Source: Streptomyces sp. NBC_01463
GTDB taxonomy: Bacteria; Actinomycetota; Actinomycetes; Streptomycetales; Streptomycetaceae
Direction of reading: 5' to 3'
Assembly: GCA_036227345.1 (NCBI GenBank)
Contig: CP109468.1
Coordinates: 4,216,001 to 4,280,000, forward strand
DNA: 64,000 nt
A model generated the notes under the pieces. The model saw only the letters and a program-made list of their open reading frames with translations. It had not been told where the DNA came from and searched no databases. The first letter of the stretch is position 1, and every line of letters begins with the position of its first letter. This document shows positions 41,281-51,827 of this stretch, one piece after another. A program made the position numbers and the translations under genes.

Positions 41281-42288
41281 TCAGGCCGCGGGCCGGGTGG
41301 TCGGAAGTGCCGCGGCACCGTCCTTGGTGACGCGTGTCGCACCGAAGTAGTCGGGCGTGTCGATCTTGTCGAAGCGGATGACGGCACCGGTGTACGGGGC
41401 GTTGATCATGTACCCGCCCCCGACGTAGAGGCCGACGTGATGGATGGCCCGCGAGTTGGTCAGGTCGTCCGAGAAGAACACCAGGTCCCCGGGGAGCAGT
41501 TCCTCGCGCGAGGGGTGCGGACCGGCGTTGTACTGGTCGTTCGCCACCCGCGGCAGCTCGATGTCCACGGTCCGGTACGCGGCCTGGGTCAGCCCCGAAC
41601 AGTCGAACCGCCCGCCCTGCTCCGGGGTGCCGTTGCCGCCCCACAGGTACTTCGTGCCGAGCTTCTTCTGCGCGAAGTAGATGGCGCCAGCCGCCTGCTG
41701 CGAGGGCTGCACCCGCCCGACGGGCCGGGCGAAGCTCTTCTCCAGGGTCCGAATGATCTTGACGTAGTTCTGTGTCTCCGCGATGGCCGGGACGCCGCCG
41801 GACTTGATGACGCGGTACGCACCGGCGTTGTAGGCGGCCAGCATGTTGTTCGTGGCGTCGCCGGGGACCTTCTTCACGTACCCGGCGAGCTCGCAGTCGT
41901 ACGAGGCGGCGGACGGAATCGCGTCGGCGGGGTCCCAGACGTCACGGTCACCGTCCTGGTCCCCGTCGACCCCGTGCGAGGCCCAGGTCCCCGGGATGAA
42001 CTGGGCGATGCCCTGAGCGGCGGCCGGGCTCCGCGCCCGCGGGTTCCAGCCGCTCTCCTGGTAGAGCTGGGCGGCGAGGAGGGCGGGATTGATGGCGGGA
42101 CAGAGGTTGCCCCACTTCTGGACGAGCGGCTGGTACCTGGCGGGCACGGCCCCCTTGGCCAGACCCACGGCACCGCCCCCACCGCCGCCGAGACCGGCCG
42201 CGGCGGAGTACGTACCGACGACGAGCAGCGCCACGAAGCACATGGCGACGCCGACGCCGATCCCACCAGCCATCCAGAATTTCCGCAC
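41281..42288 (-). CDS. Two-domain cell-wall hydrolase: lytic transglycosylase plus NlpC/P60 peptidase
   Basis: 335 residues. One N-terminal helix (about 5-35) anchors or exports it. The transglycosylase-like domain (about 50-180) has CPAINPALLAAQLYQESGWN, with the catalytic Glu in QESGW, and LAAYNAGAYRVIKSGG. The NlpC/P60 domain (about 205-320) has the Cys of GRFDCSGLTQ, the His of AIHHVGLYVG and a trailing INAPYTGAVIRF. It would cut both glycan and peptide in peptidoglycan. This fusion resembles the wall-opening enzymes of Gram-positive type IV systems (VirB1/TcpG-like). It lies 17 kb from the secretion-like operon, so a partnership is inference. Confidence 0.9.
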   Translation of the reverse strand: MRKFWMAGGIGVGVAMCFVALLVVGTYSAAAGLGGGGGGAVGLAKGAVPARYQPLVQKWGNLCPAINPALLAAQLYQESGWNPRARSPAAAQGIAQFIPGTWASHGVDGDQDGDRDVWDPADAIPSAASYDCELAGYVKKVPGDATNNMLAAYNAGAYRVIKSGGVPAIAETQNYVKIIRTLEKSFARPVGRVQPSQQAAGAIYFAQKKLGTKYLWGGNGTPEQGGRFDCSGLTQAAYRTVDIELPRVANDQYNAGPHPSREELLPGDLVFFSDDLTNSRAIHHVGLYVGGGYMINAPYTGAVIRFDKIDTPDYFGATRVTKDGAAALPTTRPAA

Positions 42289-42528: not shown

Positions 42529-43125
42529 TCAGGCCTGCCCCGCGGACCAGTAGTCGGACCGCACGTTGGGACCGGGGAGCGGATAGACACCCCGGTACGC
42601 GGGCCCGTTCGGCTTGGACGCGGAGTCGGCAACCTTCGACTCCTTCACACAGGGGGTGTCCGCCTCGAAGAAGGCCTGCCCCTTGGCACGCACGCTCACG
42701 CTGATGCCGAAACCGTCCTTCGTCACCGCGTAGACCGCCGGGAACACCGCGTCGTCGTTCTTTGCCTTGATGCGGTACTCGCTCGTCCGCCAGAACTTCT
42801 CGACCTGGTCGAGGAAGGTCTGCCGGCGGTCCGCGGACACGATGGTCATGACGGTCCGTCTGCGGGTCACGTCACAGCTGCCCTTGGTCGTCGGGCCGTG
42901 GGCCCACTGCACCTTCGGGTCGATCTGTTTCAGTACGGCGTCGAGCATGCCGTCGGCGTGCTCGGCAGCCCCCTGCATGTCCATGCTCTTCCCCTTGCTG
43001 CCGCTCGGGCTCTCGGAGGCGCCGGCCCCCACGCTCCCGCCCGACGAAGCCGTCTCGCTGCCACAGGCGGACAGCGTGAAACCGGCTGCCAGAGCCACCG
43101 CGATGATCTGGAACCTTCGGCTCAT
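42529..43125 (-). CDS. Lipoprotein partner of DUF1023 cassette 1
   Basis: 198 residues. Signal peptide with lipobox LSACGS (Cys near 21), then a Ser/Gly-rich linker. The mature domain shares MDMQGAAEHADGMLDAVL and HGPTTKGSCDVTRRRTVMTI with the lipoprotein of cassette 2 (45797-46336), showing the two are paralogues. Conserved cysteines are in GSCDVTRRR and ADTPCVKES. The start overlaps the DUF1023 stop (ATGA), so the two are coupled. It might shield or chaperone its large partner, like an immunity or accessory protein; this is inference. Confidence 0.75.
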   Translation of the reverse strand: MSRRFQIIAVALAAGFTLSACGSETASSGGSVGAGASESPSGSKGKSMDMQGAAEHADGMLDAVLKQIDPKVQWAHGPTTKGSCDVTRRRTVMTIVSADRRQTFLDQVEKFWRTSEYRIKAKNDDAVFPAVYAVTKDGFGISVSVRAKGQAFFEADTPCVKESKVADSASKPNGPAYRGVYPLPGPNVRSDYWSAGQA

Positions 43126-45611
43126 CGCTGTTCCTCCATCTTGAGCCGGTCGGCATGTCCCGACACGATAAGAGCAATGCTGTCGGCGGACATCGCGTCC
43201 CGCACCGGATTGAAGTAGTTCGAGTGCGCGTCGAAGCTCACCCCGTCACCGCTGACGAGCGGCTTGCCCGGATCCACGGGGAACCGTACGGCCCCGAACG
43301 CCTTGCTCGCCGGATCCTTGCCGAACCAGAGATCGTCGTCGCCCGGATCGGCCAGGTCCCCGGCCACGTACGCGCCGGCCGGCCCGCCCAGGATCATCCC
43401 GATCGCGCCCACCGCCACCTGCGTCTTGGACGGGAGCTGGGTCACCGGATCGTTGGCCGCGGCGCCGACGTAGACGTGCGCCGCCCCGACCCCGAGATCC
43501 ACGGCGTGGTCCACGCCCACCCCGGGGCTGCCGACGAGGATGATGTCGTCCACCCCCGGAATCCCGTTGAGCCGCTGGGTCGCGGCGCCGACGGCACGGG
43601 AGCCGTAGGAGTGCCCGATCGCCGTGATGTGCGGATCCTTGCCCTGGTGGGTGGCCGCGATGCCGCCCATGAAGTCGTAATAGGCGGCACCGCCCTTCTC
43701 CGCCCGCCCGGTACCCGCGACGGCCAGGCTCTGCAGCCCGTCGGGGGCCTGCGGTGTGTCGTACCCGAGCCAGACGATCGCCGCGCTGGACGGGTCGTAC
43801 CCCTGGGCGCCGATCGCCGTGTCACGGGCGCGCTTGAGGTCGTTCTTCGCGAACTCCTCGTCGAGGGAGGTGTTCAGTCCAGGGACGTAGGCCGACACGT
43901 TCTGCGAGGTGTCGGGGTTCCCGTACGAGACGATCGCCCGCCCCTGGCCCTCGTCGCTGATGCCGATGAGGTACATCGGGGGCTGGCTGTCCTCCTTCAG
44001 CTGCCGCTCGATCTCGCGGAGCCCGGCCAGTTGCTCCTTCGACTGCTTGTCGGTCTGCCCCTCCAGCTTCTCGATCAGATCGGGCAGGTGCCGGCGGTTG
44101 GCCGTGTCCCGGTCGGCGACCGGAATGCCGTCCAGGGCGCCGATCCGGTCCGGGGAGAGCTCCAGGTACCGGTCACGCTCCTGCTGCGTCAGCCCGTTCC
44201 ACCAGGCCTTGCGGCCGGCGGCGCTGGAACCGGTCGGAATGCGGTCGTTGAGGTACTGCCGCTCGGAGTCCCGGACCGCGGACTCTACGCGCGTACCCGA
44301 ACCGGGCAGGCCGGTGACACCACCGACCCCGCCGGACCCCTTGGCCACGTCCCACGCGGCGGCCACGTACTGGCCGTTGCCCCATTTGCCACCGGACTTG
44401 TTGGCGGCCTGGGCGTACTGGTGGGCGACGCCCTTGGCGGTGTCGACGGGGTGCGCGATGGTGTCGACGGCCCCGGTCACGTCGCCCAGCAGCCCGTCAC
44501 CACCGACGAGCCCGGTGAAGAAGTTGCCGTCGGAGCCGCGGTCGGAGCCGGGTTTCGAGGCTTGTCTACCCGCGTCGACTCCTGAAGAAGAACCGGCGGT
44601 TCTGCCCGAACCGGCGGCCGGGTCGGAGGCGCCGGAGGTTCCGGACTTGCTGGAAGTGTCGGAGTTGGCGGCCCCGTTGGCGTTGCCGCCGACGCCGTTG
44701 GCGTTTCCGCCGGCGGCGTTGCCTCCGGTCGCGTCGGACCCACCGCTCTCGGTCGCACCGGAGTCGGCTCCGCCGGAATCGCTTCCACTGGATTCGGCTC
44801 CGCCGGAATCTGCTCCACTGGAATCGGCTCCGCCGGAGTCAGTCCCCCCGGAGTCAGTTCCCCCGGCCACGGTCGCGCCTTCGAACCCGTCACCGGAGCT
44901 GGACCTGCTCCGGACGCCGCCGCCCTTCACATCACTGCCGCCGTCGGCGACGACCTGGGGCGAAGGGCAGGCATTCCCGGTCACCTGGCAGACGGCACCG
45001 CGGAATCGACCGGACACCGGCCCACCGACCCCGGTGGCCAGGAGGCCGCCGACGAGAGCCGCGACGACGAGGACCAGGCCCACGTACTCCAGAGCGGACT
45101 GCCCGGTGTCCAAGCGCCATCTGGCCAACTGGGGTATGTGGAACGGGCGGTGCTCGACGCGCTGTTCGGGGGCGAGCCTGAACCACGCGCGGGACCGGGG
45201 CAGGCACAGGAGGACGAGAACGGCTACCGGCAGCACCAGTTGCATCACGCCCCGGCTGTTGTCCGCGTCGTTGAGCGTCGCGAGCGCGCCGAGCACGAGC
45301 CAGGCGTGAACGGCGAGCAGCCCGCACCAGATGCGGACGCCTCCGGCGCGTACGTACAGCGACAACACGAACCCGGTGATGCCGGGAAGCACGGCGTACA
45401 GCAACATGCCGAGCAGCCGACCGTCCACCGCGTCGGCCGAGGACGCCACGAGCAACACGTTGAACGCGCCGACGATCGTGACGACAAAGAGTAATCGGAC
45501 GAGAGTCAGTACCGCCTGCAAGGGGCGCGACAGCGGTTGTCTGCCCGGGCGGACCTCGGGGGTGCCTACGTCAGCACCATCCGGTAACGCTACTTCTCCT
45601 ATGCCAGACAC
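43122..45611 (-). CDS. Large membrane/pilin-like plus DUF1023 alpha/beta hydrolase protein (cassette 1)
   Basis: 829 residues from an in-frame start. About four hydrophobic helices occupy residues 30-140. Then comes a class-III-pilin-like segment (ALEYVGLVLVVAALVGGLLA, about 173-192) followed by a cysteine-bearing stretch (GAVCQVTGNACPSP). A 120-residue Gly/Ser/Asp repeat region (GGADSSGADSGGAESSG) and a linker (VDTIAHPVDTAKGVAHQYAQ) lead to the C-terminal DUF1023 domain (about 500-829). That domain has the nucleophile elbow AIGHSYGSRAVG. This domain is shared with cassette 2, but the N-terminal half is unrelated. The true start could be a little downstream; the 829-residue length is an upper limit. 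Confidence 0.72.
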   Translation of the reverse strand: MSGIGEVALPDGADVGTPEVRPGRQPLSRPLQAVLTLVRLLFVVTIVGAFNVLLVASSADAVDGRLLGMLLYAVLPGITGFVLSLYVRAGGVRIWCGLLAVHAWLVLGALATLNDADNSRGVMQLVLPVAVLVLLCLPRSRAWFRLAPEQRVEHRPFHIPQLARWRLDTGQSALEYVGLVLVVAALVGGLLATGVGGPVSGRFRGAVCQVTGNACPSPQVVADGGSDVKGGGVRSRSSSGDGFEGATVAGGTDSGGTDSGGADSSGADSGGAESSGSDSGGADSGATESGGSDATGGNAAGGNANGVGGNANGAANSDTSSKSGTSGASDPAAGSGRTAGSSSGVDAGRQASKPGSDRGSDGNFFTGLVGGDGLLGDVTGAVDTIAHPVDTAKGVAHQYAQAANKSGGKWGNGQYVAAAWDVAKGSGGVGGVTGLPGSGTRVESAVRDSERQYLNDRIPTGSSAAGRKAWWNGLTQQERDRYLELSPDRIGALDGIPVADRDTANRRHLPDLIEKLEGQTDKQSKEQLAGLREIERQLKEDSQPPMYLIGISDEGQGRAIVSYGNPDTSQNVSAYVPGLNTSLDEEFAKNDLKRARDTAIGAQGYDPSSAAIVWLGYDTPQAPDGLQSLAVAGTGRAEKGGAAYYDFMGGIAATHQGKDPHITAIGHSYGSRAVGAATQRLNGIPGVDDIILVGSPGVGVDHAVDLGVGAAHVYVGAAANDPVTQLPSKTQVAVGAIGMILGGPAGAYVAGDLADPGDDDLWFGKDPASKAFGAVRFPVDPGKPLVSGDGVSFDAHSNYFNPVRDAMSADSIALIVSGHADRLKMEEQR
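44738..44872. repeat. Coding tandem repeat in cassette 1
   Basis: Imperfect 15- to 30-bp units built on GGAATCGGCTCCGCCG / TCTCGGTCGCACCGGAG encode the GGADSSG/DSGGAES stretch on the minus strand. Unit boundaries drift, as in slippage-expanded low-complexity regions, so its length is likely to vary between strains. Confidence 0.65.
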
Positions 45612-45743
45612 GAAGAGTCTCCCCAGCTTTGTGAGCAGGCGCAGCGACGGTTCCCCCGGTATCCGTATGCGACCACAACGCTGCGGGGTTGTGCATGGGC
45701 CCTAGGGCCCAATGCTGGACTCAACCTGAGGTCAATCAGCCGT

Positions 45744-45788
45744 CCCTTACCCCCACCGACCATGCCGTTCCGGTCATTGGGGGCAGGG
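45744..45788. terminator. Hairpin downstream of cassette 2
   Basis: CCCT..CCCCCA (45744-45755) pairs with TGGGGG.AGGG (45778-45788); an inner GACC/GGTC pair extends the fold. It lies nine bases after the minus-strand lipoprotein stop at 45797. A separate perfect palindrome, TGGGCCCTAGGGCCCA, sits at 45696-45711 in the same 185-base gap. Confidence 0.65.
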
Positions 45789-45796
45789 ACGAGCCG

Positions 45797-46336
45797 TCAG
45801 GAGGCCCCGGCGGACCAGAAGTCGGAGTGGACGTTGGGGCGGGGGATCGGGTAGATGCCTTCGTAGGAGGGGCCGTTGGGAGGTGTCGTCGACTCAGCGA
45901 CTTCGGACTCCTCCACGCAGGGACTGTCCACTTCGAAGAAGGCTTGCCCTCCCCCGAAGATAAGGCTCACGCCGAACCCGTCACGGGTTTGCCCATAGAT
46001 CGCGGGCGAATCTCGGTCATTGTTGACCCCCTTGATTCTGTAATCACGTTTCCGCCAAACCCTCTCCACCAACCCCAGGAAACTACCCCGCCGTTCGTCA
46101 GACACAACAGTCATTACCGATCGGCGCCGGGTCACATCACAGCTACCTGTGGTGGTGGGCCCGTGAGCCCACTCAACAGACGGCTCAATGCTCGCCAGTG
46201 TTGCATCCATAATCCCGTCTGCGTGGTCCGCAGCTGACTGCATGTCCATGTCCGCCCTCTTCTCGCTTATTACGCATCCGGACAGAACTGCGCTTAGGAT
46301 TAGCGTCACCGTGCATCGCAAAACGCGATCCATCAT
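45797..46336 (-). CDS. Lipoprotein partner of DUF1023 cassette 2
   Basis: 179 residues. Lipobox LSAVLSGC with Cys near 21, then KRADMDMQSAADHADGIMDA, which matches the equivalent block of the cassette 1 lipoprotein. Two cysteines are conserved (GSCDVTRRR, DSPCVEE). The gene has more A/T at third codon positions than nearly all neighbours (stretches such as AATCACGTTTCCGCCAAACC). The ATG overlaps the stop of the large gene upstream by four bases, an ATGA junction identical to cassette 1. Function unknown. Confidence 0.75.
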   Translation of the reverse strand: MMDRVLRCTVTLILSAVLSGCVISEKRADMDMQSAADHADGIMDATLASIEPSVEWAHGPTTTGSCDVTRRRSVMTVVSDERRGSFLGLVERVWRKRDYRIKGVNNDRDSPAIYGQTRDGFGVSLIFGGGQAFFEVDSPCVEESEVAESTTPPNGPSYEGIYPIPRPNVHSDFWSAGAS

Positions 46337-48141
46337 CGATACTCCTCGGCCTTGAGCCTCCGAGATTGCCCAGCCGCAACCAGAGCAATGCTGTTCGCGG
46401 ATGAAGCATCTCGATCCGGATCGAAATACTGAGAGTGCGCATCGATAGATAGGCCGTGACCGCTAACAAGCCTTGGCCCGTCATCTACGGGAAATCTCCT
46501 GGCACCGAACGCCTCGCTGGCAGGATCCTTGCCAAACCAAAGATCATCGTCTTCCTTGTCGGCGATCTCACCGAGCAGGTAGGCACCAGCAGGGCCCGCA
46601 GCAGCCCAGCCAACCGCACCAACCGCACCCTGCTGCTTCGAAGGAAGCTTTGTCACAACATCGTTCTCTGCTGCACCAACGAAGACGTGCCCCTTACCCA
46701 CACCAAGGTCATCCGCGCGATCTACACCGACTCCCGGACTGCCCACCAGGACGATGTCATCAACCCCTGGAATGCCGTCTTCATGCTGCGTCGCAGCACC
46801 CACTGTGCGCGAACCGTATGAATGCCCGATCGCCGTCATATGCGGATCCTCGTTCTCATTTGTGGCAGAAATGCCACCCATGAAACCATGGAAGGCTAAT
46901 CCACCTTTCTCGGCCCGCTCATCGCCCATTACGTCAAGACTGTCCAAACCATCCGGAGATTGCGGCGCGTCGTAACCAAGCCAGACGATCGCCGCACTAG
47001 ATGGGTCGTGCTGCTGCATTCCGATCGCCGTATCACGAGCTCGCTTAAGGTCATTCTTCGCAAAATCCGCATCCAACGAAGTATTCAACCCCGGCACATA
47101 AGCCGAAACATTCCGCGCCGTATCCGGATTCCCGTAAGAAACGATCGCGCGCCCGTTCCCCTCATCACCGATGCCGAGCAGGAACATCGGCGGCTGCCGG
47201 CCCGCCCGCAGCTGCCGGTCGATCTCCCGCAGCCCCGCCAACTGCGTCTCCGCCCGCTCACCGTCCCTCCCCTCCAGCTTGCCGATCAGCAGCTGCAGGT
47301 TGTCCCGGTTCGCCGTGTCGCGGACCAGGGCCGGGATGCCGTCCAGATTGCCGATCTGGTCCGGGTACACCGCGAGGTACTCCTCGCGCTGTTCGTCCGT
47401 CAGGCCCGCCCACCACTCGCGCCGCGCCACCGCACTCGCCTCGTACGGGATGCCCGACTTCAGGTAGCCCCGCGCCGCGGCCCGTACCGACGCGGCGTCC
47501 CCCGCCGTGTCCGTCCACGTGCGTTCCGGGACCGTCAGGCCCTCCTCGGCCTTCAGCTTCCGCAGGATCCTGGCGAACCGCCAGTCGATCTCGGCCGCCG
47601 TCCGCACCGCCTTCGCCACCCGGTCCGCGATGTCCTGCGCCTTCGCCGCATGCGGGTTCGGGGCCACCAGCTCCGACGGTGGCAGCAGTCCCGGCGCCGC
47701 CCCCACCGACGCCGTCCCGCCCGCCAGCGGCTTCCCGTCGATCAGGCCCTCCCCCGCCGCCGGATACGTCACCGACCCGTCGGCATGCACCGTGAACCTC
47801 AGCGACTCCGCGTCGTCCAGTGCCTCCCTCAACACCCGTTGCTGGGCCCGCATCTCGAAGGCGAGGCTGTTCAGCGCCGTCCGGACCAGGCCGCACTCCG
47901 TGTAGACGTAACTCAGGTTCCGGCCCAGCCGCCGCAGCCGCCCCACGGCCGCTTCCGCCGCCGCGCCCTGCTGGGTCTCACGCAGGCCGTTCAGCAGTTG
48001 GTGTTCGATCCGGTCACGCCCGGCGTCGGCCCGGTTGCTCGCCTTGCCCCAGCCGTCGGCCGCGCCCTCCAGTTCGGCGCACTTCAGATCCCGTAACTGG
48101 GCCCAGGTCAGCGGCGAGGCAGGGGCGGCAGCGGGCGTCAT
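46333..48141 (-). CDS. WXG-like N-terminus plus DUF1023 alpha/beta hydrolase protein (cassette 2)
   Basis: 602 residues. The N-terminus is a helical, WXG/ESX-like region (SPLTWAQLRDLKCAELEGAA, residues about 9-28, continuing through LNSLAFEMRAQQRVLREALD), typical of DUF1023 proteins. The C-terminal half (about 330-602) is a close relative of cassette 1, with YVPGLNTSL, DPSSAAIVWLGYD and nucleophile elbow AIGHSYGSRTVG. There is a switch in base composition near 47165: upstream codons (N-terminal half) are very GC-rich, while the 46340-47165 stretch has many A/T-ending codons. This suggests that the hydrolase half was swapped in by recombination. It overlaps genes on both sides. Confidence 0.8.
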   Translation of the reverse strand: MTPAAAPASPLTWAQLRDLKCAELEGAADGWGKASNRADAGRDRIEHQLLNGLRETQQGAAAEAAVGRLRRLGRNLSYVYTECGLVRTALNSLAFEMRAQQRVLREALDDAESLRFTVHADGSVTYPAAGEGLIDGKPLAGGTASVGAAPGLLPPSELVAPNPHAAKAQDIADRVAKAVRTAAEIDWRFARILRKLKAEEGLTVPERTWTDTAGDAASVRAAARGYLKSGIPYEASAVARREWWAGLTDEQREEYLAVYPDQIGNLDGIPALVRDTANRDNLQLLIGKLEGRDGERAETQLAGLREIDRQLRAGRQPPMFLLGIGDEGNGRAIVSYGNPDTARNVSAYVPGLNTSLDADFAKNDLKRARDTAIGMQQHDPSSAAIVWLGYDAPQSPDGLDSLDVMGDERAEKGGLAFHGFMGGISATNENEDPHMTAIGHSYGSRTVGAATQHEDGIPGVDDIVLVGSPGVGVDRADDLGVGKGHVFVGAAENDVVTKLPSKQQGAVGAVGWAAAGPAGAYLLGEIADKEDDDLWFGKDPASEAFGARRFPVDDGPRLVSGHGLSIDAHSQYFDPDRDASSANSIALVAAGQSRRLKAEEYR

Positions 48142-48521
48142 CGTTCGACCCCCCGCGTCCGCCTCGCCACCGGGGCGAAGGACGACTTCACGGTCTCGTT
48201 CGTGTCGCCCTGGGCCCGGGCCACGGCCCGCAGGTTCCCGGCCAGGGCCCCGCACTCCCGCCGTGCCGTCTCGATGCGCCGCTCCCAGGACTCGCGTACC
48301 GACCCCAGCTCGGCCAGCGCGGTCAGGCCTGCGGTCCCGGCGAGCAAGCCCTCGTGCGCCGTGGCGAGTTCCGTCCTCACCGGGCCCAGGTGCACCCCCA
48401 TGCCGTCCGCACCCCCCGCGGCCCGCAACCACACCCCGTCGCTGTGGCTCAGCCGGTCCCCGCCGCCCGGGCCGCCCCCACCACCGGTCCCGCCACCGGC
48501 CAGATCACTCAGCCTCTGCAT
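48138..48521 (-). CDS. WXG-like helical protein heading cassette 2
   Basis: 127 residues from the ATG. A Gly-rich N-terminus, then a helical core including the W of SDGVWLRAAGGADGMGVHLG and long amphipathic helices (GPVRTELATAHEGLLAGTAG, VRESWERRIETARREC). This is the form of the small WXG-type proteins encoded just before DUF1023 genes in actinobacteria. A canonical W-x-G turn is not exact. It overlaps the next gene in an ATGA junction, so the trio WXG / large protein / lipoprotein is translated as one unit. Confidence 0.6.
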   Translation of the reverse strand: MQRLSDLAGGGTGGGGGPGGGDRLSHSDGVWLRAAGGADGMGVHLGPVRTELATAHEGLLAGTAGLTALAELGSVRESWERRIETARRECGALAGNLRAVARAQGDTNETVKSSFAPVARRTRGVER

Positions 48522-48691
48522 CCCGTTCACCCCGCTCGCCCGTTCCTTGATCGTGGAGCGGCACTGTGCCAAACGGAGATGTCACGACACGCCGGGCACA
48601 CGGATGCCGGGGCGCGGGCCGGTCGCCCACTCCCCGGGCCTCCCAACGCATCGCCGCCCGGGCGCAGATCACCCGAACGGTGGACCGGGCA

Positions 48692-50473
48692 CTACGCCCC
48701 GTACGTCCTCGGGTCCACCGTGGCGAGCCGGTCCAGCGCGGCGGCCGCCCGGTCCTCCGGCGGGGTGCCGTCCTCCGGGATCTGCCACATGCGGTGCCGG
48801 GGGGCGCCGTCGTCCCCGGCGTACAGCAGGCAGACCGCCGTACGGTCCGGGTCCTGGAAGTCCGTGGCGATCCAGCCCAGTTCCATGTCCCACCGGGTGA
48901 GCAGTTCCGGCCGGTCGCGCAGTCCGGCGGCGATCAGCCGGGACGTCCTGCGAGCCGGCCACGTCCACGCGTGGTCGTTCTCGGCGCGCGCGATCTCCGC
49001 GTCGTACGCCGCCCCGTCGAAGCGCAACTCCGGGATCTCCCGCAGGTACAGCGGCGAGGGCGGCGGGGGCGGGCGGCGCCAGTCGGACCAGACGACCTGG
49101 TCGCCGTCCCGCCGGACGGTGACGTACAGCGCACCGCAGCAGCCCTCGGTGCAGTACGCCTCCGCGAGCTGCACCTCCCGGGGTTCCGCGGTGGCCCGCA
49201 GCACGCCGCTGTCCAGCAGGTCCTCGGGGGAATGCGCGGCACCCCGCCCGAACGCCTCCTGGACCAGCGGCCGGCCGTCGATCAGCATCCGGGACTCCAC
49301 GGTGTGGGCATCGGCCGGGTCGCGTACGACGGTCTCGATCCGGAGGGCCCGTAGCGAGGGACCCGGCCCGCCGATGGCATCCGCACCAGCCGCCGCGTCG
49401 GCGAACGGCCGCTTCCCATTGCGTACGGCCCACTGGAACCGCCGCCGCTCCACACCCTCCGCACCGGGTCCCGGGTCCGCTCCGGGGACCACGACAGCGC
49501 GCCACTCGGGCCGGTCCAGCACGGACTCCACCTGCTCCAGCACCGCCTCGCGCCGGCCCGTCCCCCAGTCGTGCAGCCGGCCGGGGCCGCTGTGGAGGTC
49601 GAAGGCCGCCGAGAGCAGCAGCGCGTAGTGGTCGAGCGTGGGCGCCAGTCCCGCGGCGCACGACACGAACGCCTCGTACGTGCTGACGGCCTCCGCGCAG
49701 AAGAGGATCTCGGCCCGGTCGTCGCGCAGGCTCGTCGCACGGAACAGCAGCCATCCCGTACGCGCCGTCAACGCCTCGCGCAGGGACGGCGTGACGTCCG
49801 GCGACCTCAGGATGTCGGCCGGCCGCACCGCGTCCACGATGCGTCGCGCGGTCTCGGGCCCCACGTTCCGGCGTTCTCTCGGAACCGCCGCGAGCCCCCG
49901 GCGCACCGCCGCCCCGTCGTCCGCCTCCAACGCGGCGACCAGCGAACGCAGTTCCGGCCCTTCGGCGTGATGGCCCAGCCACACCAGTGCCCCGGCCCGC
50001 CGGTCGATGGCGTCGAGCGCGTGCACGGCGGGGGTCACGAGGTCACGCAGCGCGCCCAGGACCTCCAGCAACGGCACGTCCTCCGGCTCGCCCAGCCGGG
50101 CCAGCAGGCCGAGTCCGACGCAGACCGCGGTGGGGGTGGTTCCCGTACGGGCGAGGCGGCGTCCGAGCGCCCGCGCCCGGTCCTCGTGCTCCAGCGCCAG
50201 CTCGCGGACGATGCGGCCGATCTGAAGGTCCCGGACGACTGGTCGCAGTCCGGCGAAACGCCGTTCGGTCTCCGCCGCGGCCCAAACCGTGTCGGGGTCG
50301 GCGAGCAGCGGGGCCACGATCTCCGTCACCGCCGCCCGCGCCTCGGCCCAACTGCGGCTGTACCGAGGCTTCGAGCGGGAGGCACCGGACGGACCGGACG
50401 GACCGGAGAGGTCGGGTAGCGGATATCCCCCTGCGGGGAGCCGGCCATCGGGCTCGTCGCGGCACAGGCGCAC
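48692..50473 (-). CDS. Large hypothetical protein with possible HEAT-like repeats
   Basis: Up to 593 residues from a GTG at 50473; the start is uncertain because a TTG at 50530 and other codons lie upstream. Cytoplasmic, with helix-rich middle parts (PEDVPLLEVLGALRDLVTPA, LRSLVAALEADDGAAVRRGL) that suggest repeat-type scaffolding. A Cys-rich stretch (AEAYCTEGCCGALYVTVRR) occurs near residue 450. The C-terminus has a W-rich segment (DHAWTWPARRTSRL). No catalytic family recognised. It lies between the WXG-like gene and the divergent LtrA gene. Confidence 0.6.
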   Translation of the reverse strand: MRLCRDEPDGRLPAGGYPLPDLSGPSGPSGASRSKPRYSRSWAEARAAVTEIVAPLLADPDTVWAAAETERRFAGLRPVVRDLQIGRIVRELALEHEDRARALGRRLARTGTTPTAVCVGLGLLARLGEPEDVPLLEVLGALRDLVTPAVHALDAIDRRAGALVWLGHHAEGPELRSLVAALEADDGAAVRRGLAAVPRERRNVGPETARRIVDAVRPADILRSPDVTPSLREALTARTGWLLFRATSLRDDRAEILFCAEAVSTYEAFVSCAAGLAPTLDHYALLLSAAFDLHSGPGRLHDWGTGRREAVLEQVESVLDRPEWRAVVVPGADPGPGAEGVERRRFQWAVRNGKRPFADAAAGADAIGGPGPSLRALRIETVVRDPADAHTVESRMLIDGRPLVQEAFGRGAAHSPEDLLDSGVLRATAEPREVQLAEAYCTEGCCGALYVTVRRDGDQVVWSDWRRPPPPPSPLYLREIPELRFDGAAYDAEIARAENDHAWTWPARRTSRLIAAGLRDRPELLTRWDMELGWIATDFQDPDRTAVCLLYAGDDGAPRHRMWQIPEDGTPPEDRAAAALDRLATVDPRTYGA

Positions 50474-50636
50474 AGCGTACGAATGGAGCGAGGGAGGAGT
50501 GAGCGCCTCGCGCTCTGCCCCGGCGCTCAACGGGCGGGGTGGTTCTCGATTCCGTAAGTCATGCGGCGCAGTCTGGCAGGGCCGCCCGCCCCGTTCCAAC
50601 AGGTTTCGCACCCGCAGGGCAGGAAGAATGCGGGCC

Positions 50637-51827
50637 ATGAGTGATTCACAGCCCACCTCCAGCGCCTGGCACCGGCCCATGGTCGCCCGCCTCACCGACG
50701 AGCGGCACCGCACCGCGACCATGCTGGAGCTGTTCTTCGACCTCTGCTTCGTCACCGCGGTGGCCCAGGCCGCTGCCGCCTTCGAGCACGAGCTCGCGGA
50801 GGGACGCATCGGTCACGGCGTCCTCGGCTACGCGATGGTCTTCTTCGCGATCTGGTGGGCCTGGATGAACTTCACCTGGTTCGCCTCCGCCTACGACACC
50901 GACGACGTGCCCTACCGGCTCCTGACCCTGGTCCAGATCACCGGGGCGCTCGTCCTGGCCGCAGGAGCGTCCGAGGCCCTCGTGCACGAGGACTTCACGG
51001 TCATCACCTGGGGCTACGTGATCATGCGGCTGGCCATGGTCACACAGTGGCTGCGTGCCGCCAGGTCCGACCCCGAACGGCGCCGCACCTGCCTGCGCTA
51101 CGCCGTGGGGATCCTCGTGGTGCAGATCGGCTGGCTCGTCCGCCTCACCCTGCCCGACGACATCGGGGTCGCCACCTTCGCCGTCCTCGTCGTGGCCGAG
51201 ATCGCCGTCCCCGCCTGGGCGGAGCGCGCGGCCACCACCACCTGGCATCCGCACCACATCGCCGAGCGGTACGGCCTGTTCACCCTGATCGTGCTGGGCG
51301 AGTCGATCACCGCCGCCACGGGTGCGGTACGTGCCGCGCTCGACACCCACGCGCCGCTCGGCGACCTCGCCGTCCTCGTCGTCGGGGGTCTCCTGACCGT
51401 CTTCGCCCTGTGGTGGCTCTACTTCGCGCAGAGCGCTCCTGAACGGCTCACCACCCTGCGCGTGGCGCTGCTCTGGGGCTACGGCCACTACCTCGTCTTC
51501 GCGTCCGCCGCGGCCGTCGGCGCCGGCCTCGCCGTCAACGTGGCCCATGCGACGGGCCACGGTCACCTCTCGGACCGTGCGGCGGCAGCGGCGTACACCG
51601 TTCCGGTCGCCGTGTTCGTCTGCCTCGTCTGGCTGCTGCACCACCGGAGCGACGGACTGCGCCGGGCGGCCGACGCCGTCCACCCGGTCGCGGTCCTCGC
51701 CGTCCTCGCGGCGACGTTCGCGCCCGGCCCCTACCCCGCGCTCGTCACGGGCCTCGTCACGGCGCTGCTGGTCACCACGACGGTGATCCTGTCCGCACGC
51801 GCCAAGGCCAGGACCGGAACCTCCTGA
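50637..51827 (+). CDS. Low-temperature-requirement A (LtrA) family membrane protein
   Basis: 396 residues from the second ATG (an ATG nine bases upstream is an alternative, and the AGGAAG purines fit both). The family hallmark is RTATMLELFFDLCFVTAVAQ near the N-terminus, followed by FWWAWMNFTWFASAYDTDD-like text, and about ten transmembrane helices. The HHIAERYGLFTLIVLGESIT segment is another strongly conserved block. The substrate and activity of LtrA proteins are unknown. It ends just before a perfect palindrome terminator shared with the convergent gene. Confidence 0.92.
   Translation: MSDSQPTSSAWHRPMVARLTDERHRTATMLELFFDLCFVTAVAQAAAAFEHELAEGRIGHGVLGYAMVFFAIWWAWMNFTWFASAYDTDDVPYRLLTLVQITGALVLAAGASEALVHEDFTVITWGYVIMRLAMVTQWLRAARSDPERRRTCLRYAVGILVVQIGWLVRLTLPDDIGVATFAVLVVAEIAVPAWAERAATTTWHPHHIAERYGLFTLIVLGESITAATGAVRAALDTHAPLGDLAVLVVGGLLTVFALWWLYFAQSAPERLTTLRVALLWGYGHYLVFASAAAVGAGLAVNVAHATGHGHLSDRAAAAAYTVPVAVFVCLVWLLHHRSDGLRRAADAVHPVAVLAVLAATFAPGPYPALVTGLVTALLVTTTVILSARAKARTGTS

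Follow-up and report, generated by a model that had tools for sequence, protein, structure and literature searches.

The window analyzed here, a 64,000-nucleotide stretch of Streptomyces sp. NBC_01463 (contig CP109468.1, positions 4,216,001 to 4,280,000, assembly GCA_036227345.1), carries on its minus strand, at 42,529-48,521, two tandem cassettes in which a large effector ending in a DUF1023 alpha/beta-hydrolase module is followed by a lipoprotein. We propose, with a probability of about 0.77, that both cassettes encode polymorphic exported toxin-immunity pairs, an antibacterial hydrolase toxin and its immunity lipoprotein; the toxicity, its neutralisation, an extracellular lipid target and the secretion routes are what we infer. 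The observations behind this proposal are the gene order, the near-universal pairing of the two genes, their joint exchange, displaced remnants, solitary or extra lipoproteins, and a head (head B) common to named toxin domains. The five open reading frames (ORFs) and their parts are as follows.

48138..48521, minus strand: small helical partner of cassette 2, 127 aa from the ATG (open frame from a TTG at 48572), ATGA-coupled to the effector
46333..48141, minus strand: cassette 2 effector, 602 aa counted from the ATG at 48141 (the open frame also has a GTG further upstream, at 48432), with WXG-like helical head, linker, DUF1023 alpha/beta hydrolase and C-tail
47494..48141, minus strand: head A, residues 1-216 of the cassette 2 effector
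45870..47050, minus strand: exchange block, hydrolase residues ~365-602 and lipoprotein to ~residue 155, edges approximate
46819..46821, minus strand: putative catalytic Ser441 in GHSYGS; Asp494 (46660-46662) and His569 (46435-46437) complete the predicted triad
45797..46336, minus strand: cassette 2 lipoprotein, 179 aa, a proposed immunity protein with a putative LppA-like fold
43122..45611, minus strand: cassette 1 effector, 829 aa, GTG start, with head B, Gly/Ser/Asp linker and DUF1023 module
44967..45611, minus strand: head B, residues 1-215 of the cassette 1 effector, with four transmembrane (TM)-like segments, a prepilin-like motif and a fifth TM-like segment
45084..45104, minus strand: type-IV-prepilin-like processing motif G170/Q-S-A-L-E-Y (the slash marks the cleavage position)
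43125..44282, minus strand: DUF1023 module of cassette 1, residues 444-829
42529..43125, minus strand: cassette 1 lipoprotein, 198 aa, lipobox LSAC, proposed cognate immunity protein

ATGA overlaps couple the genes at 48138/48141, 46333/46336 and 43122/43125. The C-terminal 386 aa of the two effectors are 68% identical without a gap and contain GHSYGSR in each, and the two lipoproteins are 56% identical, with the lipobox Cys at residue 21 in both. An earlier note on this DNA had described two tandem, ATGA-coupled cassettes sharing a C-terminal DUF1023 domain and a lipoprotein, and the five ORFs bear this out; its C-terminal match with GHSYGSR is also present, but the ~270 residues given for it were too few. 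Both effectors match Pfam Abhydrolase_8 (DUF1023, PF06259), at E 2.5e-32 for cassette 1 and 2e-34 for cassette 2 (112.4 and 119.2 bits vs. a gathering score of 20.5). S441, D494 and H569 are invariant across 59 aligned proteins, and by residue order and predicted fold they would form the catalytic triad. Variable patches of the hydrolase lie near residues 368-382, 398-427 and 503-532. The proposed toxin is probably an esterase or phospholipase, its substrate being a prediction. The assignment of DUF1023 to the alpha/beta hydrolases dates from 2005 (as cited in PMC11878206 and PMC9966272); the available excerpts of these two papers give no biological role for it, and none was found in the open-licence literature on DUF1023/Abhydrolase_8. 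A mutation table for Micrococcus includes a DUF1023 gene (excerpt of PMC8467076).

Homologues were sought in a sample of 246 Streptomyces genomes. In what follows L-numbers denote loci and G-numbers Streptomyces genomes, type A and type B denote genes with head A and head B, and the clade numbers (I, III) of hydrolases and lipoproteins are labels made in this analysis. For the DUF1023 module seven candidates were scored per genome and kept at E≤1e-40, which gave matches in 76 of the 246 genomes; loci were taken from rows better than 1e-70 and from 13 of the 16 weaker rows. Hand-picked loci were added for head-A matches without a module partner (20 loci) and for head-B matches (20 loci and 12 pilin-only loci, from which 8 and 5 proteins were scanned against Pfam). 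Among 271 named relatives of the large protein, the best 80 carry Streptomyces titles (one reads '[Kitasatospora] papulosa'). When the heads of 100 hydrolase frames were compared all-against-all, 85 were assigned to head A, 14 to head B and 1 to neither. The two window N-termini, which the earlier note had called unrelated, fell into separate clusters, so the idea that they are one and the same domain fails.

The pairing of hydrolase and lipoprotein is near-universal. In the window and L039-L158 (121 sources, mostly chosen by a hydrolase or head match), a member of the lipoprotein superfamily lies ≤700 bp downstream of 125 of the 129 DUF1023 frames scoring >100 bits, and of 105 of the 106 with head A. 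The four unpaired frames are one fragment at a contig edge and the three DUF1023 genes of the host genome that lack head A. Close hydrolase relatives (≥300 bits, 161 sources) are followed by a lipoprotein in 191 of 191 cases. The search in other genomes for DUF1023 genes followed by this lipoprotein, which the earlier note had suggested, turned up the lipoprotein beside almost every such hydrolase gene, and the lipoprotein is not widespread without DUF1023: among 136 superfamily frames from the 121 sources, 11 lack an adjoining DUF1023 frame. Because the lipoprotein profiles were iterated on frames from the same loci, homology was selected for, and position was not.

The window lipoproteins match no Pfam or NCBIfam family above the cut-off. 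Their best fold matches are LppA (PF16708) and DUF4853 lipoproteins; at E≤1, 7 of 49 relatives match Pfam LppA (best 4.1e-5), the window copies not among them. A protein database yielded 535 relatives, of which 120 were listed; none of these has a Pfam domain, and the named ones among them are called hypothetical protein, lipoprotein or, once, LppA-like lipoprotein. Profiles of clade-I lipoproteins miss the other clades, and iterated profiles unite all of them into one superfamily. A restriction of the lipoprotein to close DUF1023 relatives was considered and rejected: 13 distant hydrolases have a different-looking lipoprotein that belongs to the same superfamily by iterated profiles. The cassette 1 lipoprotein is matched in 78 of the 246 genomes (E≤1e-3), with the weakest rows spanning little beyond the leader region. 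Twelve of these 78 have no module row, and seven of the 12 have weak lipoprotein rows only (E 3e-5 to 9e-4); the five strong rows lie beside other head-A-type genes (L118-L120) or are solitary (L116 and L117, the latter on a 3.9-kb contig). Class-wide, the profile matches 14 of 296 genomes, 5 of them Streptomyces and 9 outside the genus. At seven out-of-genus loci a DUF1023 frame lies directly upstream of the lipoprotein in six (L277-L282, all of family code f17), and not in L276 (f19).

In cassette 2, Streptomyces exchange the hydrolase tip and the lipoprotein as one block of ~1.2 kb on a conserved head. Compared in 150-base steps with a close relative (G179, locus L039), the cassette 2 head shows 0.82-0.93 identity, and the stretch 47,100-45,900 shows 0.59-0.77. 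Identity is 0.80-0.94 in cassette 1, with 0.62-0.75 in its repeat linker and 0.70-0.76 in the lipoprotein gene end and the following intergenic stretch, and 0.69-0.91 in the gene upstream of cassette 2. GC content drops in the same cassette 2 stretch in both genomes; in the window it passes from 0.72 to 0.54-0.63 from about 47,150. The edges of the block were located with 90 pairs chosen because their heads are alike and their tips are not, a choice that shows where the change lies and not how often it occurs. Synonymous identity falls from 0.69-0.93 to 0.29-0.49 at ~47,040 and is back to 0.59 at 45,895 and 0.88 at 45,850; the transition at ~47,050 is abrupt, and the block closes at ~45,870, within the 3′-end of the lipoprotein gene.

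For counting, near-identical genes were removed (134 of 154 type A kept; some L159-L238 loci are from the same species as L039-L118). In 390 non-redundant type-A pairs with similar heads (head identity ≥0.82), the median synonymous divergence (dS) was 0.36 for the head, 0.32 for the linker, 1.72 for the hydrolase and 1.33 for the lipoprotein. Over these pairs identity correlated at 0.88 between hydrolase and lipoprotein and at 0.15 between head and hydrolase. Hydrolase dS exceeded 1.5x head dS in 30 of 38 disjoint pairs, and the reverse was seen in 0. Trees were built from 27 tandem loci. The head data reject a 10-gene group that the hydrolase tree and the lipoprotein tree have in common (delta lnL 344, approximately unbiased (AU) test p 1.3e-7), and head clades are rejected by the hydrolase data in 3 of 3 AU tests (p 0.012, 9e-6 and 2e-5) and by the lipoprotein data in 2 of 3 (p 2e-6 and 0.001); the groups were chosen after viewing the trees, so these p-values are optimistic. 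The two main tip classes require five changes on the head tree. A step in GC content at third codon positions (GC3, about 0.9 to 0.6-0.7) is also seen at the hydrolase boundary (window 45950-47190), and it recurs in many, not all, type-A loci; it may stem from a common pool of low-GC donors or from selection.

Cassette 1 is vertically inherited: its tail, lipoprotein and flank evolve together, and its head is merely fast-evolving. Type-B statistics, for which all pairs were used and contig-edge loci (L052, L094, L114 and L115) were excluded, gave a dS of 0.55 for the hydrolase, 0.57 for the lipoprotein and 0.50 for the flanking SLT-NlpC/P60 gene, with a hydrolase-flank correlation of 0.95 and a hydrolase-lipoprotein identity correlation of 0.93 (378 pairs); the type-A pairs set against type B were those with linker identity ≥0.82. 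Within the same loci, 12 disjoint locus pairs were compared: in 11 the divergence of the cassette 2 hydrolase was >1.5x that of the cassette 1 hydrolase, and the reverse was found in 0. The earlier note had read the pattern as modular head-swapping. As a driver this is rejected for cassette 2 by the dS contrast, since the head is conserved while tip and lipoprotein move, and it is not seen for cassette 1, where tail, lipoprotein and flank co-evolve. The comparison of C- and N-terminal phylogenies that the note had recommended did reveal discordance, the cassette 2 tip group being rejected by the head data, but it is the tail, not the head, that moves.

Heads A and B both look like delivery heads, because head A distantly resembles Esx, WXG and PPE proteins and comes with a small partner and EccD, and head B carries tails with toxin domains. 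In an AlphaFold2 (AF2) model of the cassette 2 effector (pLDDT 85.7, pTM 0.84; helices 21-56 and 60-113), head A is predicted to be a long helical hairpin, distantly similar to Esx, WXG100 and PPE proteins. The head A profile matches EsxB residues 10-101 at E 0.03, and six EsxA/EsxB chains are among the 14 that were listed at E≤1. At Pfam E≤1, PPE is found in 6 of 59 head A relatives (best 1.9e-5) and WXG100 in 13 of 59 (best 0.0078); the head of the window effector has no Pfam match, and this effector has no TM-like segment by hydropathy. A small-partner homologue precedes the effector in 75 of 85 type-A loci; six of the other 10 have a non-matching candidate and four have no candidate. Among 22 small-partner members, WXG100 was found in 6 (best 1.6e-4) and T7SS_ESX_EspC in 4 (best 2.4e-6) at Pfam E≤1, and the window copy has no Pfam or NCBIfam family match. 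Another small gene (PAELRASA...), WXG-like by eye, lies ~0.4-1 kb downstream of divergent hydrolase cassettes in L124-L127, L129, L130 and L132.

The canonical YxxxD/E export signal of type VII secretion systems (T7SS) is C-terminal. A Y-x3-D/E motif occurs between residues 50 and 110 in 69 of 85 type-A heads, a count that has no chance control and concerns a position different from the canonical site. The host genome has EccD and one WXG100 gene (4.6e-12), both over the cut-off; the WXG100 gene, with a weaker neighbour (3.6e-4, below the cut-off), lies ~1.8 Mb away from the cassettes. EccD is present in 227 of the 246 genomes, including all 76 module-bearing (hypergeometric 6e-4) and all 92 head-A genomes (9e-5), as judged by a by-eye comparison of the listings in which relatedness was ignored. 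Exported alarmone synthetases beside T7SS components and putative immunity genes have been predicted in Streptomyces (excerpt of PMC12691689), so T7SS weapons in this genus are not a new idea.

Of the two window effectors, only that of cassette 1 has TM-like head segments by hydropathy, at residues 37-55, 66-84, 94-112 and 119-137, and a fifth hydrophobic segment (177-195) follows G/QSALEY. The motif xxAxE[YFL] is present in 50 of 57 head-B frames, and all 50 have Gly at the cleavage position. Head B is matched in at least 89 of the 246 genomes (E≤1e-4), many weaker rows covering the pilin-like part only; G182 and G193 have strong head-B matches, yet no EccD. In Pfam scans of eight head-B proteins from other loci, three had a Tox-REase-5 tail, one ADPrib_exo_Tox, one a Scabin-like domain and three no match; two neighbours of such genes were also scanned, with Imm52 as the match for one and none for the other. 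The bare pilin segment also heads PT-HINT and deaminase toxins.

The host genome has one Peptidase_A24 (prepilin peptidase) match. We advance only as a speculation, which we consider doubtful, that the cassette 1 head might be cut by a prepilin peptidase, with the toxin then released from, or built into, a Tad/Flp-type pilus-like apparatus. If so, one Streptomyces locus would fire the same toxin family through two secretion systems. No description of prepilin-type trafficking of polymorphic toxins was found in the open-licence literature on prepilin/pilin-like toxins. A 576-aa PT-HINT protein of the host, led by the bare pilin-like segment GQGALEYVG, is encoded 3.4 kb from the only Peptidase_A24 match (L296:14521-16248 and L296:10187-11155, ~3.285-3.291 Mb). 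Five Streptomyces genomes (L289, L290, L291, L293 and L294) contain short frames that are very similar to one another and carry a Flp-like pilin segment (RGQTAFEYLGIILVVVAIIG). Judged by eye, they encode a free-standing pilin of ~75 aa; a Pfam scan of L289 gave no match.

Cassettes also leave remnants. In L119 a clade-III effector with its own lipoprotein lies directly before a 78-aa frame, which contains the last ~60 residues of a clade-I hydrolase, and the clade-I lipoprotein belonging to it. A comparable tail remnant with its lipoprotein is found in L120, behind a head-A-like protein of a different kind and another membrane protein. L118 encodes a head-A-like protein whose tail differs, then a lipoprotein of a different sort and then one of the cassette type. 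In L277, which belongs to another family, a lipoprotein follows each of the hydrolase pieces and the headless tail fragment. Three lipoproteins in a row are found in L062, and one extra in L104, L076 and L146; the extra copy in L104 and L076 is of another clade. A decayed cassette is seen in L156, where a shortened head A and a leftover linker fragment lie just upstream of a transposase-like ORF (by eye).

These remnants bear on the role of the lipoprotein. It could be a dedicated chaperone, foldase or membrane anchor on which a secreted lipase, nutritional or envelope-remodelling, depends, and this need would explain their joint inheritance. Against this speak lipoproteins that persist where there is no effector (L116 and L117) or only a hydrolase tail remnant (L119, L120 and L277), that stand three in a row (L062) or that add a member of a different clade (L104 and L076), and the exchange of a block on a conserved head, together with a head B shared with nuclease and ADP-ribosyltransferase toxin domains, is weapon-like. 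Orphan immunity and cassette displacement account better than a foldase does for displaced tails and for lipoproteins that are solitary or supernumerary, and we consider the helper role improbable. A different reservation concerns cassette 1 alone, which may be a domesticated non-weapon derivative, e.g., a surface-anchored envelope esterase, with cassette 2 as the toxin. Its vertical inheritance, with median identities of 0.87 for the hydrolase and 0.82 for the lipoprotein, speaks for this, as does an NlpC/P60 gene ≤700 bp from 34 of the 36 type-B genes having that neighbour; its head family, however, bears known toxin domains, and the co-encoded lipoprotein has been retained. We take domestication as a serious possibility, short of even odds.

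The exchange in cassette 2 might itself be only apparent, if its hydrolase and lipoprotein evolved fast under relaxed codon usage (low GC3) and dS were inflated without recombination. Two observations favour this and weigh against block exchange: the GC3 step has a similar position in many, though not all, type-A loci, and one of the seven AU tests fails to reject, the head clade L043+L192 being compatible with the lipoprotein data (p 0.19). The remaining six tests reject, however, and rate alone leaves unexplained why some pairs have a hydrolase more alike than the head (0.95 vs. 0.84 for L218-L086), why identity recovers inside the 3′-end of the lipoprotein gene, and why the cassette 1 copy in the same loci behaves otherwise. 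We therefore regard evolution without recombination as very unlikely.

Under the toxin-immunity proposal, (i) the C-terminal DUF1023 alpha/beta-hydrolase would be the toxin, acting outside the cytoplasm; (ii) the co-translated lipoprotein, on the outer face of the producer membrane, would bind and inhibit it; (iii) in cassette 2 the WXG-like head and the small upstream partner would steer export through an ESX/type VII system; and (iv) in cassette 1 the same toxin would sit behind a membrane/prepilin-like head, also used by other Streptomyces toxins, and take an undefined membrane- or pilin-type route. Homologous recombination between conserved edges, the start of the hydrolase domain and the 3′-end of the lipoprotein gene, would replace tip and lipoprotein jointly, and cassette 2 would diversify in this way. 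The effector-like character with a dedicated co-encoded lipoprotein that the earlier note had suggested agrees with the near-universal pairing, the joint exchange and the toxin domains on head B.

Judged by analogy, and on excerpts of the papers cited here, the functionally closest known system appears to be TslA-TilA, a T7SS phospholipase A toxin and immunity lipoprotein of Staphylococcus aureus (PMC10730906). There too a lipase-type hydrolase is fused to a helical T7SS domain and has small helical partners, the immunity lipoprotein gene adjoins the toxin domain, and the toxin is polymorphic with multiple immunity copies. In TslA, however, the lipase comes first, the helical domain last and the partner genes 3′, whereas cassette 2 has the forward order, helical head first and hydrolase last. 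TilA is DUF576 and the cassette lipoproteins look LppA-like; DUF576 is absent among the 15 families listed at E≤1 for 49 scanned lipoproteins. The secretion system is T7SSb for TslA-TilA vs. a predicted actinomycete ESX here. Neither TslA nor TilA is among the fold-search matches listed, an absence that carries no weight.

LXG/WXG and other polymorphic toxins (Zhang et al., 2012; PMC3482391) likewise have a conserved export head, a variable toxin tail and an adjacent immunity gene, and that survey lists a lipase-like Tox-AB hydrolase3 with T7SS (WXG); DUF1023, pilin, prepilin and Flp are not mentioned in the first 300,000 of its 357,715 characters. In contrast to those systems, variation here is mostly allelic within one toxin family and is exchanged as a toxin-partner block. 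The EsaG and TipC immunity genes also undergo homologous recombination via conserved blocks, for TipC at the gene ends (PMC9484751), but there immunity paralogues recombine, whereas in cassette 2 the hydrolase tip and the lipoprotein gene co-move. No description of LppA/DUF4853 lipoproteins as toxin partners was found in the literature covered, and no paper describing the DUF1023-lipoprotein pair was found in the open-licence literature on DUF1023, on Streptomyces/actinobacterial type VII toxins or on lipase toxins with immunity lipoproteins. New here are forward-arranged hydrolase toxins with putative LppA-like immunity, the block exchange of tip and lipoprotein, and a paralogue under a prepilin-like head, which would be the most novel of these points.

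DUF1023 and an LppA-like lipoprotein superfamily thereby gain a predicted function. The locus is also a natural experiment, in which cassette 2 swaps tip and protector as a block and the sister copy stays under a different head. If the proposal is true, actinomycetes have in their type VII secretion a set of antibacterial lipase-type weapons similar to that of staphylococci, and toxins led by a prepilin segment may point to a second route.

Upstream of cassette 2, at window 48695-50809, a 705-aa protein is encoded that belongs to no family with confidence, matching PBECR2 only at E 0.098. Directly downstream of the cassettes, at 41281-42288, lies an SLT + NlpC/P60 cell-wall hydrolase gene; where a locus has this gene, it is found ≤700 bp from the cassette in 34 of 36 cases for type B and in 43 of 82 for type A.

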